The position numbers and the translations under genes are program-made. Source: Acidobacteriota bacterium (GTDB lineage Bacteria; Acidobacteriota; Terriglobia; Terriglobales; Acidobacteriaceae). Taken from it: a stretch of DNA of 32,873 bases. The stretch is taken from positions 17,852 to 50,724 of the forward strand of contig QIAB01000071.1 in NCBI GenBank assembly GCA_003225455.1, written 5' to 3'. Every line of letters starts with the position of its first letter. Within the stretch, counting starts at the first letter, position 1. The notes beneath the pieces were generated by a model. It was given only the letters and a program-made list of their open reading frames with translations. It did not search any database and was not told the origin of the DNA. Below, in pieces: positions 1-16,647 of this stretch.

Positions 1-2194
1 GATCGCCGATTACTACCTCGCGCCCCTGGGAGAAGTGTTCCGCACCATGTTGCCCTTGGCTGCGGAATTCAAGCGGTCTATCAATTACCGGATTACCGAC
101 GAAGGTCGTCTCGTGCTCCACCAGGCTAGCCTGTCCGGATCATCGGCTCGCTCCCGCCGGACGCCGGACGAGCAACTAGCCGAATTTCGCGTGCTCGAGT
201 ATTTATCGGAGCGTGAAATAACGCGAGAGTCCAGCTTGCGTGCTGCGGCTCGCGCCTCCAAGGCCGTGCTCGATGGTATGGTGCGGAAGAAGTGGATCGC
301 GCGCGAAGACGTTTCCGGCGCACGCGATGGTTCGAATGTCGTGAAGGTTGCCGCCCTGAAGAACGCAGAAGGGAAGCTTAACGCAAACCAGCAAAGGATC
401 ATTGACACCCTGGCCGCGGCTGGGGGCAAGCTCGGCCTGGAATTGCTGCGCGGGCTGCCAGTCCCACGCACAACGCTTCGCACTCTCGTGAGACGTGGAT
501 TCGTGGAAGTTGCCGAGGAGCCCGCGGATTTTAGTCTTTCCAGTTTGAAAGCCCGGCCATCACCGTTTGATTTCGATTTCAACTCCGCACAGCAGGACGC
601 CCTTCGGCATATTCAGGAAAGAGTCGCGGCACGTGAGTTCGAAGGCGTGTTGCTGCACGGTGTAACCGGATCCGGCAAGACGGCCGTATATCTGGCGGCC
701 ATGAAATCGGTGCTCGATGCCGGAAGATCGGCCATTTTGCTCGTGCCGGAAATCGGCCTTACGCCCGCTGTTGCGGCCGATTTGAATCAGGTATTCGGCA
801 ATGAAGTGGCGATTCTTCACTCCGCGCTTTCCGCTCGCGAACGCACCGAGCAGTGGCATCGTATCAAGCGGGGCGAAACACGTGTAGTGGTTGGAACTCG
901 CTCGGCGGTGTTTGCGCCGGTTTCAGATCTGGCGCTCATTATCGTGGATGAGGAGCAGGACTCTTCATATAAGCAGGAAGAAACCCCACGCTATCATGCG
1001 CGCGACGTGGCAGTGATGCGGGCCAAAATGGCGAATGCCGCCGTGGTGCTGGGTTCGGCGACGCCATCTCTCGAATCGTATTTCAATGCCAAGAAGAATA
1101 AGTATGCGCTGCTGGAATTGCCCGATCGGGTGGAGCAGCGGCCTCTACCGGAAGTTGAAATCATCGATATGCGCCAGGAGTTTCAGGAAACCGGACACGA
1201 GCAAGTCATCTCACGCAAGCTGGCGCAGGAAATTCGCGAGCGGCTGGAGCAAAAAGAACAGGTCATGGTGCTGCTCAATCGCCGCGGATATTCGCCAGTC
1301 GTACTGTGCCGTACCTGCGGCAAAACTTTGGAGTGCAAGAATTGCGCGATTGCGCTCACCCACCACAAACGTACGCATCGCATGGAGTGCCATTACTGTG
1401 GCTACATGGCTCCAGTTCCGAAAGCCTGCATTCACTGTGGCAGCGAATACGTTTATTTCCTGGGGACGGGATCAGAAAAGCTCGAGGAGCTGTTGCACGG
1501 AATGTTTCCGCATGCGCGCATTGGGCGTCTGGATCGAGACACCGTGCGCGGCCGCGAAGATTTCGAGCGCGCGCTGAATGCCTTGAACGAAGGCGAACTC
1601 GATGTGCTGGTGGGCACGCAGATGATTGCCAAAGGACATGATGTCCACGGTGTCACGCTGGTGGGAGTGGTTGGCGCCGACGCTGCTTTGGGCTTTCCTG
1701 ATTTTCGCGCCGCCGAGCGTACTTTCCAGTTGCTCACGCAGGTGGCCGGACGCGCCGGACGTGGACAGAAGCTGGGGAAAGTCGTGTTGCAAACCTATTT
1801 TCCCGATCATTACGCGGTTCAGTACGCGGCGCAACACGATTTCGCCGGCTTTTATGACAAAGAATTGCGCTTCCGCAGTTGGATGCATTATCCGCCGTAC
1901 AGCTCGATTGCGAATGTGCTGGTGCGCAGCGGCAAGTCGGATGAAGTGTTGCGCTGGTCAGGAATTCTCGGGCAATGGTTCGAGAAGGTGCGCCATGAAG
2001 GTGTTCGGGTGCTGGGTCCGGCAGCCGCGCCCATCCTGCGCTTAAAAGAAGATTACCGCTACCACTTTGTTTTGAAATCCGCCAGCCGGGAGAAATTGAA
2101 TGCCCTGTTGCGGGCTATGCTGGCTCATGCGATACAGCAGAAAATCCCGCGCACGCAGGTAATCGTGGATGTGGACGCGGTGTGGATGATGTGA
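1..2194 (+). CDS. priA: Primosomal protein N' (replication restart helicase PriA), 5'-truncated by the window edge
   Basis: PriA is a superfamily 2 DNA helicase that recognises stalled forks and reloads the replisome. The frame is already open at base 2 and encodes IADYYLAPLGE before the first candidate start (GTG 35), a typical end of the PriA N-terminal 3'-DNA-binding domain, so the true start lies outside the window. Visible motifs are Walker A GVTGSGKT, a DEAD-like box DEEQDSSYK (many PriA proteins have DEEH here), the eight-cysteine zinc region starting CRTCGKTLECKNC and ending CIHCG, GTQMIAKGHD, and QVAGRAGR of motif VI. The C-terminal domain follows and ends normally at TGA. It converges on the next gene with 11 bases between stops. 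Identity is very secure; only the start is missing. Confidence 0.96.
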   Translation, partial: IADYYLAPLGEVFRTMLPLAAEFKRSINYRITDEGRLVLHQASLSGSSARSRRTPDEQLAEFRVLEYLSEREITRESSLRAAARASKAVLDGMVRKKWIAREDVSGARDGSNVVKVAALKNAEGKLNANQQRIIDTLAAAGGKLGLELLRGLPVPRTTLRTLVRRGFVEVAEEPADFSLSSLKARPSPFDFDFNSAQQDALRHIQERVAAREFEGVLLHGVTGSGKTAVYLAAMKSVLDAGRSAILLVPEIGLTPAVAADLNQVFGNEVAILHSALSARERTEQWHRIKRGETRVVVGTRSAVFAPVSDLALIIVDEEQDSSYKQEETPRYHARDVAVMRAKMANAAVVLGSATPSLESYFNAKKNKYALLELPDRVEQRPLPEVEIIDMRQEFQETGHEQVISRKLAQEIRERLEQKEQVMVLLNRRGYSPVVLCRTCGKTLECKNCAIALTHHKRTHRMECHYCGYMAPVPKACIHCGSEYVYFLGTGSEKLEELLHGMFPHARIGRLDRDTVRGREDFERALNALNEGELDVLVGTQMIAKGHDVHGVTLVGVVGADAALGFPDFRAAERTFQLLTQVAGRAGRGQKLGKVVLQTYFPDHYAVQYAAQHDFAGFYDKELRFRSWMHYPPYSSIANVLVRSGKSDEVLRWSGILGQWFEKVRHEGVRVLGPAAAPILRLKEDYRYHFVLKSASREKLNALLRAMLAHAIQQKIPRTQVIVDVDAVWMM

Positions 2195-2205
2195 GCGTCA
2201 ACTTT

Positions 2206-2763
2206 TCAGCGCGGCCAAAGCCAGCCAAAAGTCCCGGCGGTCAGCAAGCCGTAGACCAATCCATCGATGACTTCCTTAACGGTCACGCTCCAAGGCTGGC
2301 CCTTCCAGATGCCGTCGCTGAGGTGTCCCAAGCCGTAGGCGAGGAACGCAGCGGTACCCGCAACGCGAAAGACAGCCGGATAGGGTGTACTAGGAGCGAC
2401 AGTGCGTCCGGTGAGATAGGCGGTAAAGTATCCGATGATGAGGCAATAAACAAACCACAGGGCGAGAAATTTTGGCATGGCGGGCGGACCGCTAGGGAAC
2501 ACAGTCATCATCCCGACCGGTCCCTGCTTGTATTTTTCGACCACGGCGGGCGAGTTCATTTCCTTGTGGGTGCAAAAAGGAAAAATGTAAAGGCCCCGCT
2601 TCAGGCCAGCAGCGCGCAGAGCCGCAAGGGTCTTGTCCTCATCGGGGAGCCGCTGGTAGTCGCTACGATGGTACGGCAAAAGCATGTGCATGATGGAACT
2701 GGCGACAAAGACGATGACGGCTGACAGCAGAATCGGAAGCCAAAGAGCGGTGAGCGGGACCAT
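2206..2763 (-). CDS. Unknown four-helix membrane protein, 185 aa
   Basis: I do not recognise the family. The protein opens with a hydrophobic helix (residues about 5-28, LWLPILLSAVIVFVASSIMHM), then a polar stretch of about 65 residues containing LPDEDKTLAALRAAG, then about three more hydrophobic segments (near 98-118, 132-152 and 163-182). The start is well supported: AAGGAGG lies a few bases upstream of the ATG at 2763. It stands alone between priA, which converges on it, and the ABC importer, which is transcribed the same way but ends 113 bases upstream. That spacing suggests its own promoter. No catalytic motif is evident. It is probably an inner-membrane protein of unknown role. Confidence 0.75.
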   Translation of the reverse strand: MVPLTALWLPILLSAVIVFVASSIMHMLLPYHRSDYQRLPDEDKTLAALRAAGLKRGLYIFPFCTHKEMNSPAVVEKYKQGPVGMMTVFPSGPPAMPKFLALWFVYCLIIGYFTAYLTGRTVAPSTPYPAVFRVAGTAAFLAYGLGHLSDGIWKGQPWSVTVKEVIDGLVYGLLTAGTFGWLWPR

Positions 2764-2876
2764 GCAGCCTCCTTACGGCAAGCGTGGTGAACGAATTTCG
2801 CACGCGAGACTACTCCGGTCATGCGTTGTGGTCAAGAATTGATTGGAAACTCCTGATGGCTTTGAGGCTGCAAAAC

Positions 2877-3764
2877 TTATTGTCTGCTTCCTCGCAAGAA
2901 ATCGCGGACGACTTGTTTGACGTCCCGATGTTGACCATCCACTGCGTAGTTAAGCTGCTGCATATCATGGTCGGAGATTTTTCCGGCGAGCTCGTCTAAA
3001 GCCTGCTTCACCTCGGGATGATCGGCCAGCGTTTGCTCGCGAATAATGGGCACGGCTTCATACGGTGGAAAGTAGTGCTTGTCGTCGTCGAGCACAAACA
3101 GATCAAGCGCCGGAATCAGGCCATCGGTGGTATTGCCGGCGGCAAGGTCAATCTGCTTGTCTTTTAATGCGCGCGCAAGCAGGCCGAGGTCCATGATGCG
3201 GGGCGGAGCTGCAAAACGCAGACCGTAAGTTGCGGCCAGGCCTTTGTAGCCGTCAGGGCGCTCCATGAATTCATATCCGAAGCCAGCGCGCCACTGCGGC
3301 GTGTAGGCGGCGGCTTGCGAGATGGTCTTCAGGCCAAGGCGGCGGGCATCCTCACCACGAATTTCAATCGCGAAGGTATCGTTGAATCCGAAAGGTTCGC
3401 CCACAGAGAGATTGAAGCGTCGCGCATATTCGCTCTTCACCGTTTGATAGACCGCCTCCCGATTACCCTCCGGCTTTTGTTTCAGAATCGCTGTCAACGC
3501 GGTGCCCGTGTACTCGGGATAAATATCGATTCGCCCACCAAGAATCGCCTGGTGGCAGATATAACTGCCGGCGAGATAGAACCGGCGTTCAACCTGAAGG
3601 TGCGTCTTCGCTTCAATTTGCTGGGCGATGATTTCGCCGAGAATGAGCTGCTCGGTGAAGTTTTTTGATCCGACGACGATCCTATCTTTACGTGGAGCGC
3701 ACGCAATCAGAGTAAGTGCGAAAGCGAGGATGAAAAGATTTCGCAACGTGGCTTGGGCCGTCAT
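2877..3764 (-). CDS. Osmolyte (choline/glycine betaine type) ABC transporter substrate-binding lipoprotein
   Basis: This is the extracytoplasmic binding protein of an OpuB/OsmX-like quaternary amine importer. The N-terminus is a lipoprotein signal: hydrophobic LFILAFALTLIAC with a lipobox ending at Cys21 or so, followed by charged PRKDR. The mature part begins VVGSKNFTEQLILGE, the hallmark of the OpuAC/ProX-like choline-binding family, then YPEYTGTALTAIL and the internal lobe with DGLIPALDLFVLDDDKHYFPPYEAVPI. At 295 aa it is full length for the family. Its ATG overlaps the permease stop (TGATG at 3762-3766), so translation is likely coupled. The exact ligand (choline, betaine, carnitine or another compatible solute) cannot be read from sequence. 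Confidence 0.9.
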   Translation of the reverse strand: MTAQATLRNLFILAFALTLIACAPRKDRIVVGSKNFTEQLILGEIIAQQIEAKTHLQVERRFYLAGSYICHQAILGGRIDIYPEYTGTALTAILKQKPEGNREAVYQTVKSEYARRFNLSVGEPFGFNDTFAIEIRGEDARRLGLKTISQAAAYTPQWRAGFGYEFMERPDGYKGLAATYGLRFAAPPRIMDLGLLARALKDKQIDLAAGNTTDGLIPALDLFVLDDDKHYFPPYEAVPIIREQTLADHPEVKQALDELAGKISDHDMQQLNYAVDGQHRDVKQVVRDFLRGSRQ

Positions 3765-4396
3765 CAGCGTGGACTCAATCGCTTCTCCAGCCAGCCTAGG
3801 CTTATATCGGCCAGTAGAGCCAGCATCGCTGCCGGAATCGCGCCAGCCAGAATGACCTGATCATTGACCATGGCAAGTCCACGAAAAATATATTCGCCCA
3901 AACCGCCTGCGCCGATAGCGGCAGCGATGGTCGCGAGTCCAACGGAGATCACGGTCGCAACGCGCACGCCGGCGATGATCACCCCCAGCGCCAGTGGGAG
4001 TTCCACCTGCCAGAGCAATTGGCCATCAGTCAGGCCCATGCCTCGTCCGGCTTCAACGATGGCGCGGTCCACGCCTTTAATGCCTGTGTAAGTATTTCGA
4101 ATCAGAGGAAGCAGTGCATACAGGGTGAGCGCAAGAATGGCAAGGCGATCGGCGCGCGCGCCGATCCAGGGCGCAGGTAAGAGAAATCCGAAGAGCGCCA
4201 GGCTGGGGATTGTTTGAATGACGTTCGCGGCTCCCAACACAGGCTTGTTCAGCACGGGCCGGCGCGTGATTAATATCCCCAACGGGATTCCGATCAGCAC
4301 GGCGAACAGTGTGGAGATGGCTACAAGTTGGAGATGCTGCAGTGTTGCTTCCAGAATCTCTGTGTGGTTTTGCAGAATGAATTGCCAAAGGTTCAT
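3764..4396 (-). CDS. Osmolyte ABC transporter permease (OpuB/YehY type)
   Basis: A 210-residue inner-membrane permease of the binding-protein-dependent transport family. It has about six hydrophobic segments, including LVAISTLFAVLIGIPLGIL near residues 25-43 and VISVGLATIAAAIGAGGLG near 148-166. The EAA-type loop that docks on the ATPase is visible as EAGRGMGLTDGQLLWQVELP (residues about 116-135) followed by LALGVIIAGVR. It sits between the ATPase and the binding protein and overlaps both: its ATG shares ATGA with the ATPase stop, and its TGA shares an A with the binding-protein ATG. One permease gene is enough because this class works as a homodimer. Confidence 0.9.
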   Translation of the reverse strand: MNLWQFILQNHTEILEATLQHLQLVAISTLFAVLIGIPLGILITRRPVLNKPVLGAANVIQTIPSLALFGFLLPAPWIGARADRLAILALTLYALLPLIRNTYTGIKGVDRAIVEAGRGMGLTDGQLLWQVELPLALGVIIAGVRVATVISVGLATIAAAIGAGGLGEYIFRGLAMVNDQVILAGAIPAAMLALLADISLGWLEKRLSPR

Positions 4397-5163
4397 GAGG
4401 CGCCTCGCTTCAAATCGGTTCCAAAGGCGTTCAGGTAAGCAGCAGTCAGAGGTTCAGTGGAGTGAACAAACTCATCAGGCGTTTGTACGGTGGCCAATCG
4501 GCCAGCTTCCATCAGCGCGATACGCGAGCCGAGAAGGAGTGCCTCGCGCAAATCGTGGGTCACGAATACGACGGTCTTCCGCAGGCGATTCTGGAGAGCG
4601 AGAAATTCTCGTTGCAGTTCAACGCGGGTGATGGGGTCGAGCGCGCCGAAAGGCTCGTCCATCAAGAGAATTGGCGGATCGGCGGCAAGAGCGCGGGCGA
4701 CGCCCACCCGTTGCCGCTGACCTCCTGAGAGTTCGCGCGGATAGCGGGAGGCGAGCGTCGGCTCAAGCCCTACCAGTTGCATGAGTTCTTGGACTCGGTG
4801 CCGAATACGTTCGAGCGGCCACTTCTCGATCTGCGGCACAAGGGCTATGTTGCGCTCGACGGTGAAATGCGGAAACAACCCAACTTCCTGGATGACATAA
4901 CCAATCGTGCGCCGCAGGCGAATGAGGTCCCAATCACGCAGAGAGCGGCCGTCAACCAGGATTTCTCCGCCCGTCGCCGAAAGCAGATGGTTGATAAGTT
5001 TGAGCGTGGTGGTTTTTCCGGATCCGCTGCGGCCGAGGAGCACAAGAGTTTCGCCGCGCTCAACTTCGAGGGTTAAGTTGTGAAGGAGCTCGAGCCCATT
5101 GTCCAATCGGAAGAAGACATTTTTAAACTGAATGACTGGACGATGATCAGGAGGATCATTCAT
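4393..5163 (-). CDS. Osmolyte ABC transporter ATP-binding protein, short form without CBS domains
   Basis: The energy-coupling ATPase of the importer, 256 aa. Walker A GRSGSGKT is at residues 44-51, the ABC signature LSGGQRQR near 145-152, Walker B ILLMDEPFGALD near 165-176, and the H-loop VFVTHDLREA near 200. Many OpuA/OpuC relatives carry C-terminal CBS domains that sense ionic strength; this protein ends soon after LTAAYLNAFGTDLKRG, so no CBS pair is present and osmotic gating through CBS is not expected. The ATG at 5163 lies 10 bases after the npdG stop, so it may be co-transcribed with the F420 genes. Confidence 0.92.
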   Translation of the reverse strand: MNDPPDHRPVIQFKNVFFRLDNGLELLHNLTLEVERGETLVLLGRSGSGKTTTLKLINHLLSATGGEILVDGRSLRDWDLIRLRRTIGYVIQEVGLFPHFTVERNIALVPQIEKWPLERIRHRVQELMQLVGLEPTLASRYPRELSGGQRQRVGVARALAADPPILLMDEPFGALDPITRVELQREFLALQNRLRKTVVFVTHDLREALLLGSRIALMEAGRLATVQTPDEFVHSTEPLTAAYLNAFGTDLKRGAS

Positions 5164-5173
5164 GCGTGTACAG

Positions 5174-5854
5174 CTACGTTTTGTACGCCTGGTCTGGCAA
5201 ACCCGTGATACGAATTCCGCTGTGGCCCTTGTGACGAATGTTCAGGCCAACCAGCAACGCGGTAATTTGTTCGAGAATGCGCGCGTTTTCGAGCTTGCCA
5301 CCGTCGATGGCACGTACGCCGGGAATTTTTGCGGCCAGCCCGCGCACGGACTGGATAGACTCAGCATGGTCGCTGCAGACGATCACATCGCATTCTACTG
5401 GTCCATCGCCATTCAAAAGATCAGCGGCAATGTTCTGGAAGGCAGCGACTACGGCAACGTCGGGCAGAAGCTCGGCAGTTTCCTGCGCTGCCGAACCCTG
5501 CCAAATTCCCAACGTGCGCGTGGCGCGTCCGCCAACGCTTGCAGCTAAAGGAACGGTGGCGTCCACCACAATGCTGCCCGGGCGAATCGCCGGCTTAATG
5601 TGCTTGAGCAGCGCGGCGTGTCCTTCAAACGGAATCGTAAGCACAACCACATCGGCAGAAGCGCAGGCAACACTGTTCTCGTCGCCAGAAACTTGCGCAT
5701 TTGGGATTGAAGCCTTGATCTTAGCGGCCCCTTCCTGCGCGCGCTGGGCGTCTCGTGAGCCAATGATGACTGCCTCGCCCGCCTTCGTCCAGCGCCGAGC
5801 GAGGCCGAAACCTTCAGGCCCTGTGCCGCCAAGCACGGCGATGGAGCGGGTCAT
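5174..5854 (-). CDS. npdG: F420-dependent NADP reductase (NPDG type)
   Basis: Transfers hydride between reduced coenzyme F420 and NADP+. The 226-residue protein begins with the family's Rossmann motif IAVLGGTGPEGFGLARRW (residues about 5-22), then IIGSRDAQRA for the NADP 2'-phosphate region, VVLTIPFEGH, and the central VVAAFQNIAADLL that marks this family. The C-terminal VRAIDGGKLENARILEQITALLVGLN is also typical. It is the last cof-linked gene, 16 bases after cofH, and precedes the ABC ATPase by 10 bases. In context it would recycle F420H2 for F420-dependent enzymes such as the luciferase-like protein at 28483-29550. Length and motifs look intact. Confidence 0.92.
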   Translation of the reverse strand: MTRSIAVLGGTGPEGFGLARRWTKAGEAVIIGSRDAQRAQEGAAKIKASIPNAQVSGDENSVACASADVVVLTIPFEGHAALLKHIKPAIRPGSIVVDATVPLAASVGGRATRTLGIWQGSAAQETAELLPDVAVVAAFQNIAADLLNGDGPVECDVIVCSDHAESIQSVRGLAAKIPGVRAIDGGKLENARILEQITALLVGLNIRHKGHSGIRITGLPDQAYKT

Positions 5855-5870
5855 CTTATGCAGCTCCGGG

Positions 5871-7100
5871 TTAAGCGAACTCTGGTTCGAGGGACTGCTC
5901 GAATGTGAACTGCTCGCCTGGGACCTTAATATTAATACGCGTGTATGTAGTATTGCGCTCAGCGGGAATGCGCCCGGCTTCGAGGATCAGCGACTGAAAG
6001 TCCTGCGGGCTTGTGTACTGGCCTGCTGTAGCTCCCGCTTCGCGCGAAATATTTTCTTCCATCAAGGTTCCGCCGTAGTCATTCGCTCCAGCGTGCAAAC
6101 AAAGCTGCGAGAGCTGCCGGTTCAGTTTGACCCAGGACACCTGCACGTTATTGATCGCGCCTGCCAGCAGAATCCGCGACAGCGCATGGATTTTCAAATG
6201 CTCCGCAAGCGTTGGTCCAGGACGCGCAATGCCCTGATGAAAAAGCAGAGTATTTTGATGAACGAAACCGAGCGGCACAAACTCGCTAAACCCGCCGGTC
6301 TCTTACTGAATCTAGCGGTAATGCAGAAGCTGATTTACCCAATGAGCCGGAGTCTCCACATGCCCATACATCAGCGTAGATGTGCTGCGGATACCAAGAT
6401 GATGAGCTGCGCGGATAACTTCTTTCCATTGTTCCGCGGACAGCTTGTTGCGTGAGAGAACGAATCGTACATCATCATCGAGAATCTCGGCCGCGGTTCC
6501 CGGCAGGGTATCGAGGCCATTGTCGTGGAGCATTCGCAGGTAATCGCCGAGCGACATGCCGGTCAGCTCAACGCCATAGACAATCTCCATTGGGGAGAAG
6601 GCGTGGATGTGCATTCCGGGCACAGCACGTTTTACGGCGCACAGAATATCGCGATAGTAAAACGGTGGCAGGCCATGAGGCAGCCCGCCCTGAATGCAGA
6701 CCTCTGTGGCGCCAAGCTCCCAGGCTTCAATGGCTTTCGCAGCGACTTGCTCAAAATTCAAAAAGTAGGTGTCAGATTCCCTCGGCCCCCGGCTGAAAGC
6801 ACAGAATTTGCATCCGACGAAGCAGATGTTGGTGAAATTGATGTTGCGGTTTACTACATAGGTGACGATGTTGCCCACAATTTCGCGGCGCAACTCATCA
6901 GCGGCTACCAGCAGTCCGAGCAGGTCATCGCCTTCCGCGTTCGCTAAGGCGAGGCTTTGTTCGCGCGAGAGCAAGACGCCTTCCTGGGTTTCGAGCACAT
7001 GCTCAAGCGCGGTACGAACTTCAGAGGAAAGATGCGGCGCAACATCGTACCATTCGAGAGAGGAGAAGCTCTCCAGATCACAAATTCCAGACTTGCTCAT
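5871..7100 (-). pseudogene. cofH: 7,8-didemethyl-8-hydroxy-5-deazariboflavin synthase subunit 2 (CofH), interrupted by two in-frame stop codons
   Basis: CofH is the radical SAM half of Fo synthase that joins tyrosine to the ribityl-uracil precursor. The radical SAM cluster is present as CFVGCKFC (Cys93, 97, 100 counted from ATG 7100). The reading frame is uninterrupted to codon 262 (VNQLLHYR), then reads TAG (6312-6314), Ile, Gln, TAA (6303-6305), and continues in the same frame with ETGGFSEFVPLGFVHQNTLLF to a normal C-terminus and stop at 5871. Family members read roughly REIQ(K/E)ETGG here, so both stops sit where Glu or Lys codons are expected. No indel is needed. The start ATG 7100 has GGAG six bases upstream and is preferred over ATG 7142, which would overlap cofE. 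It is either a fresh pseudogene or a sequence error. Confidence 0.88.
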
Positions 7101-7125
7101 AAGAAACTCCAGCGCAGAACTCAGC

Positions 7126-7899
7126 TTAACGAAACAGATCATTCGCGGCAGGCCGGATCAGTTCGCGAGCTGTCCCGCGTCCCGGGCGATACCTAAACCC
7201 GCGAATGATACATGCGGGCGTGCGAGCCAGCTTGCCGCAGACCAGCCCGGCAGCGCAAGCCAGTTCGTCAGCAACCGCGTCAATGCTTACCCGCAGCTTG
7301 TAACCGCGCGGGTCGCGACGGCCCCGATAATCTTCGAGCGGCTTCATTCCCGCTATGCCGATTGCAACCTCAGTCATCCCCTCGCGCCAGGGACGCCCAA
7401 AACTATCACTGATGATCACAGGAATCGAAAGGTGCAAACGTTTTTTCAACTCGCGATAGATCTTGGCAGCCGAATGATCCGGTTTTTTGGGCAGCAGCAA
7501 AGCATGGCTGCCACCATCAACGTTTGAAACATCCACGCCGCTGTTGGCGCAGACGAAACCGTGGCGGGTTTCCGTGATGAGCACGCCTCGTTTGCGGCGG
7601 ACCACGCGCCGGCTCTGCGTGAGAGCGAGTTCGGTTGCGCGCGCATCCAGTTGATAGCGGCGGGCCCAGGCGCGCGACGAAGCTGAAGGCTTGATCTTCG
7701 CCAAATCTACGAACTGGCCTTCCGCTTTAGAGATGATCTTATGTTTCACGACCAAAATGTCGCCTGGGATAAGAGCTAAGCTTCGACCTTCCATTCCGTC
7801 CAGTATCTTGTGTGTAACCGAATCTCCGGCCTTGATCTCATCGCGGAGTGTGATCGGAATCAGCCGTAATTCCTGATGATGACTTGCCGGTGCCTTCAT
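7126..7899 (-). CDS. cofE: Coenzyme F420-0:L-glutamate ligase (CofE)
   Basis: Adds gamma-linked glutamates to F420-0 using GTP. The 257-residue protein shows the family start LRLIPITLRDEIKAGDSV, GDILVVKHKIISKAEG (residues about 46-61), TRHGFVCANSGVDVSNVDGG, and ISDSFGRPWREGMTEVAIGIAGM followed by DYRGRRDPRG. This is the single-domain archaeal/proteobacterial-style form; there is no nitroreductase-like FbiB extension. The start overlaps the cofC stop by ATGA (7896-7899), and 25 bases separate its stop from cofH. All expected blocks are intact. Confidence 0.93.
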   Translation of the reverse strand: MKAPASHHQELRLIPITLRDEIKAGDSVTHKILDGMEGRSLALIPGDILVVKHKIISKAEGQFVDLAKIKPSASSRAWARRYQLDARATELALTQSRRVVRRKRGVLITETRHGFVCANSGVDVSNVDGGSHALLLPKKPDHSAAKIYRELKKRLHLSIPVIISDSFGRPWREGMTEVAIGIAGMKPLEDYRGRRDPRGYKLRVSIDAVADELACAAGLVCGKLARTPACIIRGFRYRPGRGTARELIRPAANDLFR

Positions 7900-8549
7900 T
7901 CATTTGCTGCCACTGGAAGCTGCCTCAGGTTCCACTGCCGGATCATACACTGCGCACGCGTATCTCCGGGAGCGCTCGCAAGATTGGCCAGATCCGAAGG
8001 ATTATCGATGTCGAGCGCGATGCCGGGCAATGAGAGCACAACGCACGGTTTCCGGCTCGCGTGCGCCGCCGCGAGATGCGGCTTGAAGCTGTCGTTGCCG
8101 AAGCGCAGCGGAAAGAGAGCAGCGGGACGACGAAGAACAGCGTTAGTCCCGCGACCGTCCGCGGCAGGGACCAATACAGAGCCTTCTTCCGGAGCGGCTT
8201 GCAAAATCGTGGTTACCTCCGACGACTGAATCAGCGGAATGTCTGCCGGAATCACCAGCGTGCTCTCCACGCCGCGTGATTCACAGAGTTGAGTTGCCAT
8301 CTCAATCGCATCGGTTTCACTGAAGTTCGCGAGATCAGCGATCACTTCGAAATTGAACTCGCGAGCAAGATCAACAGCGAATGGATCGCTTGTAACCAAG
8401 GCAACTTGCGGTCTATTGGAGCACATGGCAAGCGCATCGAGCACGTCGTGCAACATTGCCCGAGCTAATTCTATGCGCGTGCCCTGACCGACCACGGAGG
8501 CCAGCCGCTGCTTGGCATTAGCGAGATTTTTCACCGGAACGAGAATCAT
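7896..8549 (-). CDS. cofC: Phosphoenolpyruvate/2-phospho-L-lactate guanylyltransferase (CofC/FbiD)
   Basis: Makes the guanylated three-carbon donor that CofD transfers to Fo. From ATG 8549 the 217-residue protein begins MILVPVKNLANAKQRL, the nucleotidyltransferase signature of the family. It continues with VALVTSDPFAVDLA, TLVIPADIPLI (the metal-binding Asp motif), and ALRRP-like NAVLRRPAALFPLRFGNDSFKPHLAAA. An upstream in-frame extension to 8618 exists but is made of palindromic repeat sequence (LCGGGSSTRLDGAEP), so ATG 8549 is preferred; GGAA about eight bases upstream is a weak ribosome site. Whether the donor is phospholactate or phosphoenolpyruvate cannot be decided from the sequence. Confidence 0.9.
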   Translation of the reverse strand: MILVPVKNLANAKQRLASVVGQGTRIELARAMLHDVLDALAMCSNRPQVALVTSDPFAVDLAREFNFEVIADLANFSETDAIEMATQLCESRGVESTLVIPADIPLIQSSEVTTILQAAPEEGSVLVPAADGRGTNAVLRRPAALFPLRFGNDSFKPHLAAAHASRKPCVVLSLPGIALDIDNPSDLANLASAPGDTRAQCMIRQWNLRQLPVAANE

Positions 8550-8561
8550 GTGTATGTTCCA

Positions 8562-8613
8562 TGTGGGGACGGGCTCCGCCCCGTCCAGGCGGGTCGAAGA
8601 CCCGCCTCCACAC
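8562..8613. repeat. Intercistronic double-hairpin palindromic repeat between cofD and cofC
   Basis: Two adjacent hairpins lie inside an outer inverted repeat TGTGG (8562-8566) / CCACA (8608-8612). Hairpin 1 pairs GGACGGG (8567-8573) with CCCGTCC (8580-8586). Hairpin 2 pairs AGGCGGGTC (8587-8595) with GACCCGCCT (8599-8607) around a GAA loop, a perfect nine-base stem. There is no T-run on the transcribed side, so it does not look like a terminator. It resembles the elements at 16591-16633 and partly 10898-10915. It may modulate mRNA stability within the F420 operon. Confidence 0.8.
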
Positions 8614-8618
8614 AGCAA

Positions 8619-9578
8619 TCAAAGTTTCTGAGCGCTTTGCTGCATCCCTGTTTCGCGATGCACCACTGACAGAGCCGTGCGCGCGAGTTCAGCCTTTTCT
8701 CCGGCGGTTCGCAGGAGAGTGTTGGTACAGTGCACCCGCAGTCCTGAGCGGCGAAGCTCTTCGGCCGCTTGCGTGTCACGACCATCAACAATCAATACAT
8801 CCAGAAAATCTTTGTAAGCGCGCGCGACCCCTGCAATCGAGACTGGCCATCCCTGCGCCGCCATTAGGATTCCCGCCGGTCCAGACACTGCGGCTCCGCC
8901 AACTATCGGACTGATGGCGGCAACCGGCGCCTTCGTTCGCTGCAAGGCTTCTTTAATTCCCGGTACGGCAAGGATGGGACCAATACTGCTGACGGGATTG
9001 CTGGGCGCGACCAGCACAGCACTAGCCGACATAATCGCGTCGATAACACCAGGTGCCGGTTCGGCGTGCGCAGCGCCCGCGAAACGAACTGAGTTCACCG
9101 GATCCTGATACCAGCGCTGCACAAAATATTCCTGGAAGCTGAGTTCCCCAGCTGACGTGTCAACCCGCGTTTCCACTCGCAAATTGCTCATAGGCAGGAC
9201 GCGCGACTGCACGCCCAGGCTGCGAGCGATTTCGGTTGTTGCTTCTGACAGCGTCTTGCCTTGTGCCAGCAATTTTGACCGGAGCACGTGTACCGCCAGA
9301 TCACGGTCGCCAACATGAAACCAGATCGGCTGGCCGAGCTTCCTCATCGTCTCGAGGCAGAAAAATGTATCGCCCTTTACGCCCCAACCGCGTTCATTGC
9401 TCAACATCCCAGCAAGGACGTAGGTGATGGAATCAACATCCGGCGAGACATATAGACCCCACCACTCCAGATCATCTCCGGTGTTGACGATGATCGTAAG
9501 TTCGTTCGCCGATACGGTTTGCCGCAAGCCATCAACGAATTTCGCTCCGCCCGTACCACCCGTAAGTACGACGATCAT
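8619..9578 (-). CDS. cofD: 2-phospho-L-lactate (or phosphoenolpyruvate) transferase (CofD)
   Basis: Transfers the phospholactyl or enolpyruvyl-phosphate unit to Fo to give F420-0 or its dehydro form. The 319-residue protein opens with VVLTGGTGGAKFVDGL, then IIVNTGDDLEWWGLYVSPDVDSITYVLAG (Fo-binding region), WFHVGDRDLAVH, and VLVAPSNPVSSIGPILAVPGIKEAL (nucleotide region), and ends with GPAGILMAAQGWPVSIAGVA. These are all hallmark blocks. The start overlaps the cofG stop by four bases (ATGA, 9575-9578), implying translational coupling. A 70-base spacer holding a palindromic repeat follows before cofC. Confidence 0.95.
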   Translation of the reverse strand: MIVVLTGGTGGAKFVDGLRQTVSANELTIIVNTGDDLEWWGLYVSPDVDSITYVLAGMLSNERGWGVKGDTFFCLETMRKLGQPIWFHVGDRDLAVHVLRSKLLAQGKTLSEATTEIARSLGVQSRVLPMSNLRVETRVDTSAGELSFQEYFVQRWYQDPVNSVRFAGAAHAEPAPGVIDAIMSASAVLVAPSNPVSSIGPILAVPGIKEALQRTKAPVAAISPIVGGAAVSGPAGILMAAQGWPVSIAGVARAYKDFLDVLIVDGRDTQAAEELRRSGLRVHCTNTLLRTAGEKAELARTALSVVHRETGMQQSAQKL

Positions 9579-10759
9579 TGAGCCGTCACCCGCGCGTAGC
9601 CCTCCGCATCTGCGGCTGCCTTAAGTTTTTGCGAAAGCAACCCAGGTTCTGCCATCGCTCGATTCACGAATTCAGGATAAACCGGAAGCCGCTGCCGCAG
9701 GCTGTAGCCTTTGGCTTCAGTTCGTAACTTCAGTTCCTCCAGATGCGGCCACGGTTTTTCAGGATTGATGAAATCAGGCGTCAACGGTGAGACTCCGCCC
9801 CAGTCGTTGATGCCCGCATCGAGCAGCTCAACATAGTAAGGTGCCGATAAATTCGGGGGCGCCTGGATGTTTACATCCGGCATGAGCAGGCGAGCTACGG
9901 CAACGCAGCGCAGCATTTCGCCCCGGCTAGGCTCTGGCCAATCGTGCATTGGGATTTCTGGCTTGACTCGGAAATTTTGCACGATCACTTCCTGAATGTG
10001 TCCATAACGGCGATGCATTTCGCGAATCGCCAGCAGGGCATCAATACGGTCTTCCAGAGTCTCGCCGATTCCAATCAGCAGTCCTGTGGTGAATGGGACA
10101 CCCTGCTTCCCAGCTTCTTCGATGGTGCGAAGGCGCTTAGCCGGGACTTTGTCCGGAGCGTTGTCATGGGCTTTGCCCGGCTGCAGCAGCGACTCGCTCG
10201 TGCTCTCCAACATGAGTCCCATGCTAGGCGAAACTGCAGCTAGTCGATTGATCCACGCAGCACTGAGGAGACCAGGATTCGGATGTGGCAGCAACGATGT
10301 TTCCCGTAGAACTAGTTCGCACATGGCTTCGAGATATTGCAGCATTGAGTTATATCCAAGACGATGAAGAACGTCACGCATTTCAGGAAATGCCAGCTCA
10401 GGCTTATCGCCCAGGCTGAACAGCGCCTCGGTGCAACCCAATTTTTCGCCGGCCCTTGCTATCGCCAACACCTCATCAGGAGTCATCGTATGTGCGCCCG
10501 AGTCGCCTGGATCGCGGCGGAAGATGCAATACCCGCAGTAGTCGCGGCAGAGGTTTGTGAGAGGAATAAAAACCTTGCGCGAATATGTGATCACGCGCGG
10601 CTTGAAGCGTTCCCTAGCCTCCCTTGCTGCGAGAAGAAGTTGCGGAAGCTCATCATCCGTGGCCCGCATCAAGTAACAAGCCTGCTCGCGCGAGATCGGG
10701 CCTGAACTCAGCATATCCAGAACTGAGTCGTGGCGAGGGAAGGTATGAGCTACGGCCAA
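9575..10759 (-). CDS. cofG: 7,8-didemethyl-8-hydroxy-5-deazariboflavin synthase subunit 1 (CofG)
   Basis: The other radical SAM half of Fo synthase, working with CofH. At 394 aa it is full length. The iron-sulfur binding motif CRDYCGYC is at Cys71, Cys75, Cys78, preceded by YSRKVFIPLTNL. Further CofG blocks are TEALFSLGDKPE, ESTSESLL, TTGLLIGIGET, QEVIVQNFRVKPEIPM and DAGINDWGGVSPLTPDFINPE. The start is TTG at 10759 with GGGTGA upstream. It is the first gene of the F420 operon and is divergent from the GntR regulator. CofG and CofH are separate genes here rather than the fused FbiC of actinobacteria. Confidence 0.95.
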   Translation of the reverse strand: MAVAHTFPRHDSVLDMLSSGPISREQACYLMRATDDELPQLLLAAREARERFKPRVITYSRKVFIPLTNLCRDYCGYCIFRRDPGDSGAHTMTPDEVLAIARAGEKLGCTEALFSLGDKPELAFPEMRDVLHRLGYNSMLQYLEAMCELVLRETSLLPHPNPGLLSAAWINRLAAVSPSMGLMLESTSESLLQPGKAHDNAPDKVPAKRLRTIEEAGKQGVPFTTGLLIGIGETLEDRIDALLAIREMHRRYGHIQEVIVQNFRVKPEIPMHDWPEPSRGEMLRCVAVARLLMPDVNIQAPPNLSAPYYVELLDAGINDWGGVSPLTPDFINPEKPWPHLEELKLRTEAKGYSLRQRLPVYPEFVNRAMAEPGLLSQKLKAAADAEGYARVTAQ

Positions 10760-10773
10760 GAATTCACCCGATT

Positions 10774-10794
10774 CTCGACGAAACTATTGTCGAG
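10774..10794. promoter_or_regulatory. Inverted repeat just upstream of cofG
   Basis: A perfect six-base inverted repeat CTCGAC (10774-10779) and GTCGAG (10789-10794) with a nine-base AT-rich spacer lies 15 bases before the cofG TTG start. It could be an operator or a 5' leader hairpin of the F420 operon. No clear -35/-10 pair could be assigned around it. Confidence 0.3.
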
Positions 10795-10897
10795 TGTTAA
10801 GTCCAAAATCTAATTTTAAACTCCCGGATCATACACGAGAGCCGGATGTAGCATTGCAGCCGCTCGAATATCGAGGGCAGCGGCGGAGACTGCTGGT

Positions 10898-10915
10898 GAG
10901 GGCGCCCGCCCCACA
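10898..10915. repeat. Partial copy of the GC-rich interspersed palindromic repeat
   Basis: Read on the minus strand this gives GTGTGGGGCGGGCGCCCT, matching the head of the TGTGGGG-type elements at 8562 and 16591, but without the second hairpin. It sits in the 270-base divergent region between cofG and the GntR gene. Confidence is limited by the short length. Confidence 0.45.
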
Positions 10916-10950
10916 CTGCTGTCCGGCGATGCTTCACCACGGGGTCTAAA

Positions 10951-10977
10951 TTGTTCAACACTTGACAACGTGAACAA
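10951..10977. promoter_or_regulatory. Candidate GntR operator overlapping a -35-like box
   Basis: A perfect seven-base inverted repeat TTGTTCA (10951-10957) and TGAACAA (10971-10977) flanks a 13-base spacer. The left arm itself forms the nine-base palindrome TGTTCAACA. The spacer contains TTGACA (10962-10967), a consensus -35 sequence, with only a weak -10 candidate (CAAGAT, 10986-10991) downstream. It lies 53 bases before the GntR start, a common place for autoregulation by FadR-family repressors. The assignment is an inference from symmetry and position. Confidence 0.42.
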
Positions 10978-11029
10978 GCGGAGCGCAAGATGACCCCGGC
11001 TTCGCATTGCGTTTCCAGTCCGCATCCCC

Positions 11030-11716
11030 ATGGAGCGCTCACAGATTCACCGGGTCAGCGTCGCCGATCAAGTCGCGTCGGTCCTCCGCCAGCGCATTTT
11101 GAAGGGTGAGCTGCGCCCCGGAATGCCCCTTCAGGAAATCCCGCTGGCAGCCTCGCTTGGCGTCTCACGCAACACCATGCGCGAAGCCACGCGCATTCTG
11201 TCTCTCGAAGGGTTGCTCAAGCGCAGCATTCATCGGGGCGTGGCAGTCTCGCAACTTTCTTTGCAAGACGTTCAGGAAATTTATCACTTACGCCGCATGC
11301 TGGAAATTCCAGCCGTGCTGGCTGCCAAATCTGATCGTTCGTACGTTTTGCCTGACTTAAAAAATGCCTTTGAAGGCTACGAAGCTGCAGTCAGCGAGCG
11401 GGACTGGGTTCGTGCGGTAGAATTCGATTTGCAATTTCACACTCTGCTGATTCGCTTTCATCGCAACCGCCGGCTGGAGTCGTTTTACCAGAAACTCATC
11501 GGCGAGTTGCGCATGGGGATGGTGCTGGTTGATCGAGGCCATGATGATCCCGGAAGGCTGGTTCCGGTTCACCGCAAGTTGTATCAGCTTTTGTCATCCG
11601 GCAAGCTTAAGCAATGCGCTGCGTTGCTCGCGCAGCACTTAGATGATTCTGAATCCCGCCTGATCCGGGTTATGGGGGACCGGACTGCCGGGACCAACGG
11701 GGGACGGAAAATCTGA
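11030..11716 (+). CDS. GntR-family transcriptional regulator, FadR/FCD subfamily
   Basis: A 228-residue one-component regulator. Residues about 8-75 form the winged helix-turn-helix (VADQVASVLRQRILKGELRPGMPLQEIPLAASLGVSRNTMREA). Residues about 80-215 form an FCD ligand domain. The four usual FCD metal ligands are all visible: Asp133, His137, His181 and His203, so it probably binds a metal plus an organic acid effector. It starts the plus-strand catabolic cluster, 40 bases before the TonB receptor, and faces the F420 operon across a 270-base gap holding a candidate operator. It is the likely regulator of the downstream genes; the effector is unknown. Confidence 0.92.
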   Translation: MERSQIHRVSVADQVASVLRQRILKGELRPGMPLQEIPLAASLGVSRNTMREATRILSLEGLLKRSIHRGVAVSQLSLQDVQEIYHLRRMLEIPAVLAAKSDRSYVLPDLKNAFEGYEAAVSERDWVRAVEFDLQFHTLLIRFHRNRRLESFYQKLIGELRMGMVLVDRGHDDPGRLVPVHRKLYQLLSSGKLKQCAALLAQHLDDSESRLIRVMGDRTAGTNGGRKI

Positions 11717-11756
11717 ACCAAGCGTTGGCATTGGGACCAACGGGGAGGATGCGCGT

Positions 11757-14700
11757 ATGACAACGACAAACCGCGGAAGGTTTGGTCAGTTGTGCCTGAG
11801 TACGTTTCTGGCAGTTTTAATTGCTGCCTCGACACTCCATGCGCAAGTCGTAACCGTGACCATTCAAGGCCGAGTGGATGACACGACAGGTGCAGCCATC
11901 TCCCAGGCCAGCATTTCGGCAACTAATACGGGCACAGGATTTTCGCGCTCGGCAACCGCATCCGCCACGGGCGAGTATCAGATAGCCGGGCTTCCCGTAG
12001 GTGATTACACGGTTACCGCGGAGCGGGCCGGGTTTCAGAAGCAGGCAAAAAAGGTTCATCTGGATATAGGAGCGAGCGGCAATGTCGATTTCAACCTGGC
12101 GGTGGGTCAGGTTTCGCAGGAAGTAAACGTACAGGACGTGGGAGAAGTGGCGGAACCCACGCGCACCATGGTCAGCTCGGTGATCGATGAGCAGAAAATC
12201 GAAAACCTTCCCGTCAACGGCCGCCAGTTTATTGATTTCGCGCTACTAGCACCCGGAGTGAAGATCGGCGACACGACCTCCGGCAGCACGGACGTGATCA
12301 TCGAGCCGGTGACCAAGCTTTCCTTTGCCGGCCAAAATATACACTACAACTTTATTGCCGTAGACGGCGCTGACAATATCTCCACCGCCTCCGGCACCCA
12401 GAAATACACCCCGTCGCAGGAAGGCGTGCGCGAATTCCGCGTGATCAACAGCAGTTACAGTACAGAGTTCGGACGGGCGGTAGGCGGCATCGTCAATATC
12501 ATCACCAAGAGTGGCTCGAACGATTTTCACGGATCGGCCTACGAATACTTCCGCAATGACAAACTCGATGCCGGGAGCATTCTCGCCTCATCGGATCCCT
12601 CGACTTGCGCAACCCCAGGAGTTCTGAGTTCCGGCGGGTGCAAACAACTGAACAAGCTACGCCAGAACCAATATGGCTTTACTCTAGGCGGGCCGATCGT
12701 CAAGAACAAAACCTTCTTCTTCGGCAACTACGAAGGCCAGCGCCGCCGTGAGTCTCCTTATTACAACTCGATCATCTTGAACAATATTGATGCCATCCAA
12801 TCGTTCGAGAGCGGGATCGGAGTTCCCGTGGACAGGTTGAATGTCACGCGGAACACGGATTATGACAACGTACTCGCGCGTGTGGACCACACCATCAATG
12901 AGAAGAACAACCTGTTCGTCCGGTACTTCTTCAACAGCGGTAACCTCAAGAACTATTCCCCGCTCAATGATGGTTTCGATTTGCCCTCTGGTTTTAAGAA
13001 CAACAACGACAAGGATCATTCCATCGTCGGTAATTTAACGACCACATTTACTCCAACATTGGTAAACGAGTTGCGGCTGCAATACGCACATCGCAACTAC
13101 GATTTCGCCACTGCGAGTTCAATACCACACATGGAAATAGCGAACCAATTCACCATCGGCGTAAATCGTGGCAATCCAGATTTCTATAGAGAGGGCCGCT
13201 TTGAGCTCGTGGACAATCTCACTAAAAATGTAGGAAAACACACCTTCAGCTTTGGTGGTGACTATAACTGGGTGCGTACCACGGAATCGTTCCCCCTCTT
13301 CTATCCGTTTGAGGCCGTATTTCTCTGTGTCGCGCCCGATCCAAACAATCCGCTTTGCGGCATTTCCAATTTGATGGAACATGACCCGGTGCTCATTGAA
13401 TTCGAGCGCTTTCAAGCGCCGCTGTTTAATGAGCCGACCTTCGATCCAGCAGTGTTCCAAGGACATGGTTATCCCTCTTCCATTCGCAATGCCGCGCAAG
13501 GTACGCTGGATCACACTTACAGCGGACTCTTTGTCCAGGACAACTGGCGGGCCACCAGCCACCTTACGGTTAACTTGGGCGTCCGCACCGATTGGGAGAC
13601 GTGGCCCAGCGGCGTCTTGAACACCCAGCGGGCAGTGGATCCGAGATTGGGAATTGCGTACAGCCTGGGCACGAAGCGGAATATTGTGATCCGAGCGGGC
13701 TTGGGTCTGTTCCACGGAATTGTGCCCGCCCCGCTGCTGGCGTGCCAGAAGCCCTCCTGCGGTGGACAAGCCAAATTCCGGCCACAGGAAGACGACCTGA
13801 ATTCGGTGACACAATTGTACGGATTTGTAAGCAGCCAACGTCCGGGCGGCTTGTTGCAGGCTGCCTTTAATAACCTGTTAAACGGCAGCTACCCTGACAA
13901 CCCAGCCAATTTCGTGCCTGGATTTCAGGCTCCGTTCACGGTAGTGCGCTTCACCAAGAACCACCGTCAGCCTTATGGAATTCAGAACAGCCTTTCGCTG
14001 GAATTTGAGCCCGCAAAGGACGTCGCCCTGAACATCAGCTATTTGCGCACGCACGGCGTTCACCTGGGCAGTTTTTTCAACATCAATCAACCTGCACCCA
14101 GCGGCAACGTCCTGGTTCATGACTCCAAGGGCGATGCTGGATTGAAGAATACGTTCTGGGTTCCTGGAACCGGGAATACGATTCCAGGCGCCGCCAATCC
14201 TAATTTCTTCAACTTTTTCGAGGCCGACTCTCGCTGGTACTCGGAGTTCGACGGGCTGCTGGTTAACCTCAACAAGCGCGTCACTCACCATGTTGGCTTT
14301 GGACTCAGTTACACTTGGTCGAAAAGCCTGGACAACGGACCCAATCCCAGCTTCGTGCTCATCCCGCAGGACAGCGGCAACTTTGGCGAGGAGAAGGCAC
14401 TCTCAGCGGATCATGCCGCACACCGGTTTGTGGGCAACGCGACTTTCGAGAGTCCAACCCACATGAACGCTGTGGTGAACAATTGGCAGCTATCGACTAT
14501 CGTCAGCCTGGAGTCTCCTCACTATTTCACAAAATTCACAGGGTTCGATGCGAATGGAGACGGTTTTCCTCTCAACGACCGCGTCGGAATCGAACCGCGA
14601 GACACATTTAAGGGCGACAGTTTTCAAAGCGTGGACCTGCGAGTCTCGCGAACCTTCAAGCTGACTGAGAGATTCAGTCTGCAGGGGTTGGCGGAGAGCT

Positions 14701-14879
14701 TTAATACGATGAATACGGTTAACATCCGATTCTTCAACACAGTTTATGGTGCTCCCGACTTCATCCCGAGAGGCACATCTGGCACATTTCGCGAGGGTTC
14801 GCCCAACCCGAACTACGGCACGACACGCGCCATCTTCAATCCGCGGCAGATTCAGTTGGCGCTGCGGCTTACGTGGTAG
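11757..14879 (+). CDS. TonB-dependent outer-membrane receptor, Oar-like, with carboxypeptidase-regulatory domain
   Basis: A 1040-residue outer-membrane transporter or surface protein of the kind expanded in Acidobacteriota. A signal peptide spans residues 1-30 or so (LSTFLAVLIAASTLHAQ). A carboxypeptidase-regulatory-like beta domain follows (about 33-115, GRVDDTTGAAISQASISATN to VGDYTVTAERAGF), then a plug domain (about 125-250, ENLPVNGRQFIDFALLAPGV, VGGIVNIITKSGSNDFHGSAYEYFRND) and a long beta-barrel ending RQIQLALRLTW with a terminal aromatic residue. GGGAGG lies eight bases before the ATG. The ligand is not readable; placement after the regulator and before the oxidative enzymes suggests uptake of the cluster's substrate or an oligomer of it. 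Confidence 0.93.
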   Translation: MTTTNRGRFGQLCLSTFLAVLIAASTLHAQVVTVTIQGRVDDTTGAAISQASISATNTGTGFSRSATASATGEYQIAGLPVGDYTVTAERAGFQKQAKKVHLDIGASGNVDFNLAVGQVSQEVNVQDVGEVAEPTRTMVSSVIDEQKIENLPVNGRQFIDFALLAPGVKIGDTTSGSTDVIIEPVTKLSFAGQNIHYNFIAVDGADNISTASGTQKYTPSQEGVREFRVINSSYSTEFGRAVGGIVNIITKSGSNDFHGSAYEYFRNDKLDAGSILASSDPSTCATPGVLSSGGCKQLNKLRQNQYGFTLGGPIVKNKTFFFGNYEGQRRRESPYYNSIILNNIDAIQSFESGIGVPVDRLNVTRNTDYDNVLARVDHTINEKNNLFVRYFFNSGNLKNYSPLNDGFDLPSGFKNNNDKDHSIVGNLTTTFTPTLVNELRLQYAHRNYDFATASSIPHMEIANQFTIGVNRGNPDFYREGRFELVDNLTKNVGKHTFSFGGDYNWVRTTESFPLFYPFEAVFLCVAPDPNNPLCGISNLMEHDPVLIEFERFQAPLFNEPTFDPAVFQGHGYPSSIRNAAQGTLDHTYSGLFVQDNWRATSHLTVNLGVRTDWETWPSGVLNTQRAVDPRLGIAYSLGTKRNIVIRAGLGLFHGIVPAPLLACQKPSCGGQAKFRPQEDDLNSVTQLYGFVSSQRPGGLLQAAFNNLLNGSYPDNPANFVPGFQAPFTVVRFTKNHRQPYGIQNSLSLEFEPAKDVALNISYLRTHGVHLGSFFNINQPAPSGNVLVHDSKGDAGLKNTFWVPGTGNTIPGAANPNFFNFFEADSRWYSEFDGLLVNLNKRVTHHVGFGLSYTWSKSLDNGPNPSFVLIPQDSGNFGEEKALSADHAAHRFVGNATFESPTHMNAVVNNWQLSTIVSLESPHYFTKFTGFDANGDGFPLNDRVGIEPRDTFKGDSFQSVDLRVSRTFKLTERFSLQGLAESFNTMNTVNIRFFNTVYGAPDFIPRGTSGTFREGSPNPNYGTTRAIFNPRQIQLALRLTW

Positions 14880-14930
14880 GACGTTGCGGGAGTCGGCCGC
14901 GGATGCTCAATCGTGGAACTCCGGAATTTC

Positions 14931-15479
14931 ATGAGCGTCACTCAGTCAGAGTTTCGCAACGCGCTGGGATGTTTCGCCACCGGAGTTACGGTCATAACTT
15001 TGGATTACGAAAATGAAGTACATGGGATGACGGCGAACGCGTTCACTTCGGTTTCTTTGGACCCGCCACTGGTGCTGGTGTGTGTCGATCAGCGGGCGCG
15101 GACGCATGCGCATTTGCACGCCAAGAAACGGTTCGGAGTAAATGTTTTGTCGGAAGATCAGCGCGCAATTTCGGAGTACTATGCGCGCGTCAGCCGTATC
15201 CACCAGCACGCGGAGAAAGAAGCCGGGGCGAGGTTTGATCGTACGGCGCACGGAACTCCGGTGCTGCATGGCGCGCTGGCCTATCTCGAGTGCCGCTTGA
15301 ATACCGCAGAGGATGCAGGAGATCACACCATATTTATCGCTCAGGTTGAAGACGTGGTGGTGCGCGAAGGGGAGCCGTTGCTTTACTTTCGCGGAAAATA
15401 CCATGACATCGGACCGGCCACGAATGGCGGGGGCAAGAGCGCTGCGAGCGAGCAAGCGGATTCGGCAGCAAGGAAGTAG
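14931..15479 (+). CDS. Flavin reductase of a two-component monooxygenase (HpaC/RutF-like)
   Basis: Supplies reduced FMN or FAD to a partner oxygenase using NAD(P)H. From ATG 14931 the protein has 182 residues with the flavin-reductase fold: FRNALGCFATGVTVIT (about 8-23), GMTANAFTSVSLDPPLVLVCV (about 32-52, flavin phosphate region), FGVNVLSEDQ, and GDHTIFIAQVEDV in the C-terminal part. A GTG at 14913 is in frame, but CGGA upstream of ATG 14931 favours the shorter form. It ends with two consecutive TAG codons. The luciferase-like gene follows after 13 bases, so the two very probably act as a reductase-oxygenase pair. Confidence 0.9.
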   Translation: MSVTQSEFRNALGCFATGVTVITLDYENEVHGMTANAFTSVSLDPPLVLVCVDQRARTHAHLHAKKRFGVNVLSEDQRAISEYYARVSRIHQHAEKEAGARFDRTAHGTPVLHGALAYLECRLNTAEDAGDHTIFIAQVEDVVVREGEPLLYFRGKYHDIGPATNGGGKSAASEQADSAARK

Positions 15480-15492
15480 TAGGACATAAAGA

Positions 15493-16581: not shown

Positions 16582-16590
16582 CACAAGCCA

Positions 16591-16633
16591 TGTGGGGGCC
16601 GTCCTCGGCCGTCCAGGCCGAACGAAGCTCGGC
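16591..16633. repeat. Double-hairpin palindromic repeat, same family as 8562-8613
   Basis: Hairpin 1 pairs GGCCG (16597-16601) with CGGCC (16606-16610). Hairpin 2 pairs GCCGA (16617-16621) with TCGGC (16629-16633). The leading TGTGGGG and the central GTCCAGG match the element inside the F420 operon. It fills most of the 66-base gap before the membrane gene. Confidence 0.7.
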
Positions 16634-16647
16634 GGCAGTTTGAACTA

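Follow-up and report, generated by a model that had tools for sequence, protein, structure and literature searches.

Does a cofH gene that carries two in-frame stop codons inside an F420 biosynthesis operon record the loss of a pathway, or a fault in the sequence by which the gene is represented? The question arises from a stretch of 32,873 nucleotides from an Acidobacteriota bacterium (hereafter the window), which comprises bases 17852–50724 of its contig. For the group concerned, outside the Actinobacteria, there were no experimental studies on the role of F420 as of 2021, according to a review (PMC8498797). Among publications on F420 and cofH in Acidobacteria, on cofH pseudogenes and on stop-codon errors in draft genomes, the case is left untreated as far as titles and the opening lines of abstracts go.

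Genomic context of the cofH locus

The window belongs to a genome of 4.99 Mb in 195 contigs, with a completeness of 95% and a contamination of 4.5%. The named relatives closest to it are draft genomes of Terriglobia/Acidobacteriales, almost all of which are labelled MAG and whose titles often mention soil depths, palsa, bog or fen, and the genome of the window is probably a metagenome assembly as well; none of the 60 relatives considered belongs to the same genus. Five other genes for F420 accompany cofH:

5174–5854, minus strand: npdG, NADPH-dependent F420 reductase, intact (TIGR01915, 220.3 bits, cut-off 149.8)
7126–7899, minus strand: cofE, intact (TIGR01916, 245 bits, cut-off 180.65)
7896–8618, minus strand: cofC, intact (TIGR03552, 153.8 bits, cut-off 105)
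8619–9578, minus strand: cofD, intact (TIGR01819, 325.8 bits, cut-off 257.45)
9575–10759, minus strand: cofG, intact (TIGR03550, 457.4 bits, cut-off 213.35)

The expectation from the letters alone that these five genes are intact was borne out, as each scores above the cut-off of its family. The order cofG-cofD-cofC-cofE-cofH-npdG is common to the relatives and is followed in part of them by an ABC transporter. No second cofH and no fused fbiC, either of which the original prediction had thought worth looking for, scored above the CofH cut-off when the approximately 95% complete genome was searched by protein, by DNA and by profile. Four places were returned by the protein search, namely cofH and cofG of the window and two others that remained below the cut-off (334.9 and 333.7 bits) and are presumably MqnC- and MqnE-like.

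The window also contains two genes for luciferase-like monooxygenases (15493–16581 and 28483–29550, both on the plus strand) with full-length open frames. Both match F420-dependent families best, yet below the cut-offs of these families, and they are therefore regarded as candidate F420 users only. Molybdenum hydroxylase-like genes from the glyceraldehyde/xanthine dehydrogenase families are also present, at 18374–19728 and 20241–22703 (plus strand).

Two stop codons in a conserved reading frame

The CofH frame runs from 7142 to 5871 on the minus strand, spans 424 codons including the end stop, and is divided as follows:

6315–7142, minus strand: upstream part of cofH, codons 1–276, carrying the CX3CX2C motif
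6312–6314, minus strand: in-frame TAG, codon 277 (relatives: E 37, D 18, Q 16 of 79)
6303–6305, minus strand: in-frame TAA, codon 280, a very variable column (relatives: S 27, D 11, Q 9, A 8 of 79)
5871–6302, minus strand: downstream part of cofH, codons 281–424, conserved, in frame and with its own end stop

In the frame from 7142, the minus-strand translation around the stops reads NQLLHYR, stop, IQ, stop, ETGGFSEF, with only Ile-Gln between the two. The ATG at 7098–7100 (codon 15) is a likelier start than 7142, because overlap with cofE is then avoided.

With stops at codons 277 and 280, a single uninterrupted frame for CofH is absent. The CofH profile (TIGR03551) is matched in the same frame at positions 2–216 upstream and 223–345 downstream of the stops, and at 2–345 when they are read through; the read-through protein obtains 482.4 bits against a cut-off of 374.1, and the open parts taken singly obtain 292.0 and 165.1 bits, both below it. 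Translation and profile matches thus uphold the initial description of two in-frame stops between conserved flanks in one frame. The radical-SAM motif CX3CX2C, the iron-sulphur motif, is kept as CFVGCKFC (C107, C111, C114). Judged by its sequence, a product that ends at codon 276 would very likely be dead, because many columns that do not vary across 17 CofH proteins lie further on and would be lost.

It had also been proposed that the ancestral codons were GAG and GAA, each altered by one G-to-T change. For the first stop a Glu codon is plausible (37 of 79 relatives), but a G-to-T origin of the second is unsupported, because its column is very variable and rarely Glu (6 of 79); the relatives whose protein is closest over the 5' part (L098, L034 and L037) have Gln there.

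Rarity of interruptions among relatives

The gene was compared with the 80 best of 296 relatives, all of which align and 79 of which have letters at codons 277 and 280; the frame is therefore not one that stands open by chance. A stop at either codon occurs in none of these 79, and the comparison with cofH of related genomes that had been recommended from the outset accordingly gave sense codons at both sites in 79 of 79. Among the 80 best relatives, an in-frame stop in cofH is found in L080 alone (QIAJ01000240.1, Acidobacteria bacterium gp1 AA132, which is contig 244 of genome G262 with 100% identity over 4,676 bases), as a TGA at codon 274. The row without letters at codons 277 and 280 is L113 (JACQDD010000235.1, Acidobacteriales bacterium NC_groundwater_985; cofH at 119–1252, plus strand), from which codons 271–293 are missing, in frame and without N; it is also the row nearest to L080 by bases (0.825). 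Only one other internal gap of at least four codons was seen in the core of the gene among the 80 relatives (L050, 16 codons, 358–373), and L048 has an internal gap near the cofH start.

CofH above the cut-off was detected in 117 of 398 family genomes and 92 of 399 class genomes (22 in both, 187 distinct), and an in-frame stop within the matched stretch in 2 of the 187, namely this genome and G262. As a control, cofG has in-frame stops in 0 of 120 family genomes compared with 2 of 117 for cofH, a difference that is not significant (Fisher P 0.24). In the operons of the relatives, in-frame stops are present in cofG (1/62) and cofC (2/75, at residues 18 and 27) and were absent from cofD (0/69), cofE (0/76), npdG (0/76, with two frame changes) and three ABC genes (0/78). 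A lone stop like that of L080 would lie no more than three codons away from the stops of the window with a chance of about 0.03; adding L113 strengthens the coincidence of break points, but this coincidence was spotted after the fact.

Sequence signals around the stops and across the assembly

Relative to L034, pN is 0.072 upstream and 0.057 downstream of the stops, with pS at 0.73 and 0.71, near saturation. Protein-level constraint is not relaxed by this measure, pN being low and similar on both sides, and cofH was therefore functional until a very short time ago, if it is not functional even now. A loss of such recent date would leave no signal of relaxed constraint, and by a rough estimate even about 1% of the gene's own branch without constraint would give a visible excess of changes. 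The distance to seven outgroup rows is ordinary for the 5' part of cofH (0.224) and is at the high end of the 12 compared for the 3' part (0.166, range 0.089–0.172).

The original prediction was right about the stops and too narrow about their surroundings, as residues 274, 275 and 286 are odd as well:

6285–6323, minus strand: odd patch, codons 274–286, with H274, Y275, stop 277, stop 280 and S286

His at residue 274 and Tyr at residue 275 are unique to the window's gene, where 73 of the 79 relatives have Leu and 78 have Leu or Phe, respectively, and Ser occupies residue 286, which is Thr in 78 of the 79. Between codons 55 and 403, three bases are unseen in any relative at their place, and all of them lie within codons 275–286. 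The same range holds seven private residues counting the stops, four of them in codons 274–280 (P 0.0004, a value that counts the very stops by which the patch was defined); of the five that are not stops, two stand no more than three codons away from one (P 0.005 if placement were random). Outside the patch there is no excess, with three private residues compared with a median total of 3 per sequence. At codon 168 (6639–6641, minus strand), likewise outside the patch, Cys replaces the Arg found in 79 of 80 relatives (R168C).

Local clustering as such is not unique, because several relatives match or exceed it, and clusters of this kind do arise in these sequences, be it through error or through evolution. 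The number of private residues within seven codons reaches 5 in L101 and 4 in L112, a divergent sequence with 31 private residues, compared with 4 in the window's cofH; unseen bases within 20 nt number 6 in L101, 5 in L112, 4 in L108 and 3 each in L054 and L088, compared with at most 2. L100 had also appeared as an extreme cluster of private residues and was dropped, its cluster being a run of N. Taken together, the stops and the adjoining odd positions suggest one local event, even if clusters elsewhere in a few relatives are denser. No source of a copied segment was found, the 24-base pattern of the patch occurring once only in the genome at up to three mismatches, nor were any convincing inverted or direct short repeats seen at the patch. 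A chimera of distant genomes was ruled out, as neither the group of related genomes nor the order of genes changes from one side to the other. The nearest relatives are L098 and L034 for the 5' part of cofH and L111, L102 and L050 for the 3' part, of which the latter three cover no more than 88, 94 and 127 of 143 codons, respectively.

In 881 kb sampled from the genome there are 69 runs of N, or one per 12.8 kb, some of which may be operator masks. One run ends at the base just before the window, the window itself is without N, and some 6 kb separate the patch from the closest gap seen. As a scan for in-frame stops, codon scores in blocks of 50 codons separated poorly. A survey of 100 same-frame neighbour pairs from 944 gene-like segments (914 kb including the window), six of which were picked by eye for Pfam, yielded at least two breaks that were judged true besides cofH, a judgement that is partly subjective. 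One is a lone in-frame TAG amid conserved coiled-coil sequence of an EmrA/HlyD-like adaptor gene (L140, 2862–4547, plus strand) on a contig of 5.8 kb (1–5795). The other is an in-frame TAG in an IS110-family transposase (L122, which is bases 1–17851 of the window's contig; 1–816, minus strand), approximately 23 kb from cofH.

Discussion

The two stops are real in the sequence and ordinary in kind, most likely reflecting either a local sequence fault or a very recent inactivation, neither of which is unusual. We give roughly even chances to a local assembly or consensus fault by which cofH is misrepresented, and slightly favour it over genuine inactivation. The cofH of the cells would then work, wrong bases having entered codons 274–286 (6285–6323) at assembly or consensus calling from a scaffolded, probably metagenomic source with presumably thin coverage; two of these bases would happen to create stop codons, and the odd bases would be absent from the DNA of the cells. 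Confinement of the three unseen bases to the patch and the position of two of the five private residues next to the stops could well point to such a fault, which is favoured because the flanks and the neighbouring genes are intact, constraint is not relaxed, the assembly is rich in gaps and the adaptor gene has its lone TAG, as does the IS110 transposase. Counted against a fault are the patch being free of N and distant from any gap, the position of R168C outside the patch (it could be a first sign of decay), the high outgroup distance of the 3' part, the denser clusters in relatives and the different ranking of nearest relatives for the two halves.

Only a little less probable in our estimate is a genuine and very recent inactivation, in which one complex mutation, or several in quick succession, confined to some 40 bases, turned the cofH of the sampled strain or population into a pseudogene. 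Bacteria are known to show local mutation bursts; the stops are present in sequence that has no gaps around it, in-frame stops are also carried by another conserved gene and by the IS110 transposase of the genome, and R168C may be further damage. The same stretch of cofH is broken in two relatives close to one another, L080 and L113, as repeated real loss would give. Under inactivation, Fo and F420 would no longer be made, or Fo would come from neighbours, and the rest of the operon would have yet to decay. No second cofH was found to stand in, and at least one bacterium can do without F420, since fbiC deletion strains of M. smegmatis are viable, if hypersensitive to several compounds (PMC8498797). 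Against inactivation, the absence of relaxed constraint and the intact neighbours confine the event to roughly the final 1% of the branch that leads to the nearest relative, by a rough estimate, and the two candidate F420 users in the window keep full-length open frames.

That UAG and UAA are instead read as amino acids and a full-length CofH is made is very improbable. Such a product could work, because the stops stand at variable columns that tolerate many residues, between constrained flanks and within a modelled helix (265–282, followed by a strand at 285–292; mean pLDDT 70.5 overall, 89 for 271–280 and 81 for 281–290). The stops are shared by 0 of 79 relatives, though, and are thus not conserved, and no stop-decoding anticodon is among the 43 tRNA places found in the genome, a set that is incomplete in that it is without Tyr and Ile. 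TAG and TAA also occur at seemingly ordinary gene ends in the genome, the RNA that surrounds the stops is no more stably folded than its shuffled versions (6240–6380, z +0.54), and two different stop codons are involved here and a third kind, TGA, in L080. Hardly credible at all is a split enzyme, in which a polypeptide of residues 1–276 and the product of a downstream restart would assemble into CofH: both parts are open and conserved, but the first in-frame start past the TAA is a GTG at 6278 that is without a clear ribosome-binding site and loses the conserved ETGGFSEF, the break would fall in the middle of the modelled helix, and no relative is seen to be so split. Because codons 271–293 contain the stops of the window, the TGA of L080 and the 23 codons missing from L113, this stretch might also be a recurrent break point in Terriglobia, either a hotspot of mutation or a site where readthrough is tolerated, by which populations could switch Fo synthesis off and on; we regard this as a long shot.

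The evidence agrees with the order of plausibility in which the causes had originally been placed, with recent loss or a data fault ahead of a far less likely readthrough. Apart from the way in which the break points coincide, no positive support was found for the 'biological switch' raised as the alternative to a data fault. Should the patch be an error, it would be wrong to annotate this genome as having lost F420, and one small fault would have sufficed to erase a pathway from the record. Should it be real, the sequence would show the loss of F420 just as it begins, in a group that lies outside the Actinobacteria. In practical terms the value is modest.

Compared with the broken genes of its relatives, the cofH of the window resembles that of L080 in having an in-frame stop, which lies in L080 three codons upstream of the window's TAG, and differs in that L080 has a single TGA (codon 274), on a contig of 4.7 kb and without a cluster of private residues around it. 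With L113 it shares damage in the same stretch, which takes the form of a deletion there and involves no stops. Set against the CofH family (TIGR03551), the gene has a full-length match when read through, the same operon order and 85% identity to L034, and departs from it in the two in-frame stops and the odd residues 274, 275 and 286. Isolated breaks between conserved flanks are likewise found in nonsense pseudogenes and in consensus errors of draft genomes; what distinguishes the present case from other breaks in draft genomes is that two stops lie three codons apart, and in a core biosynthetic gene.
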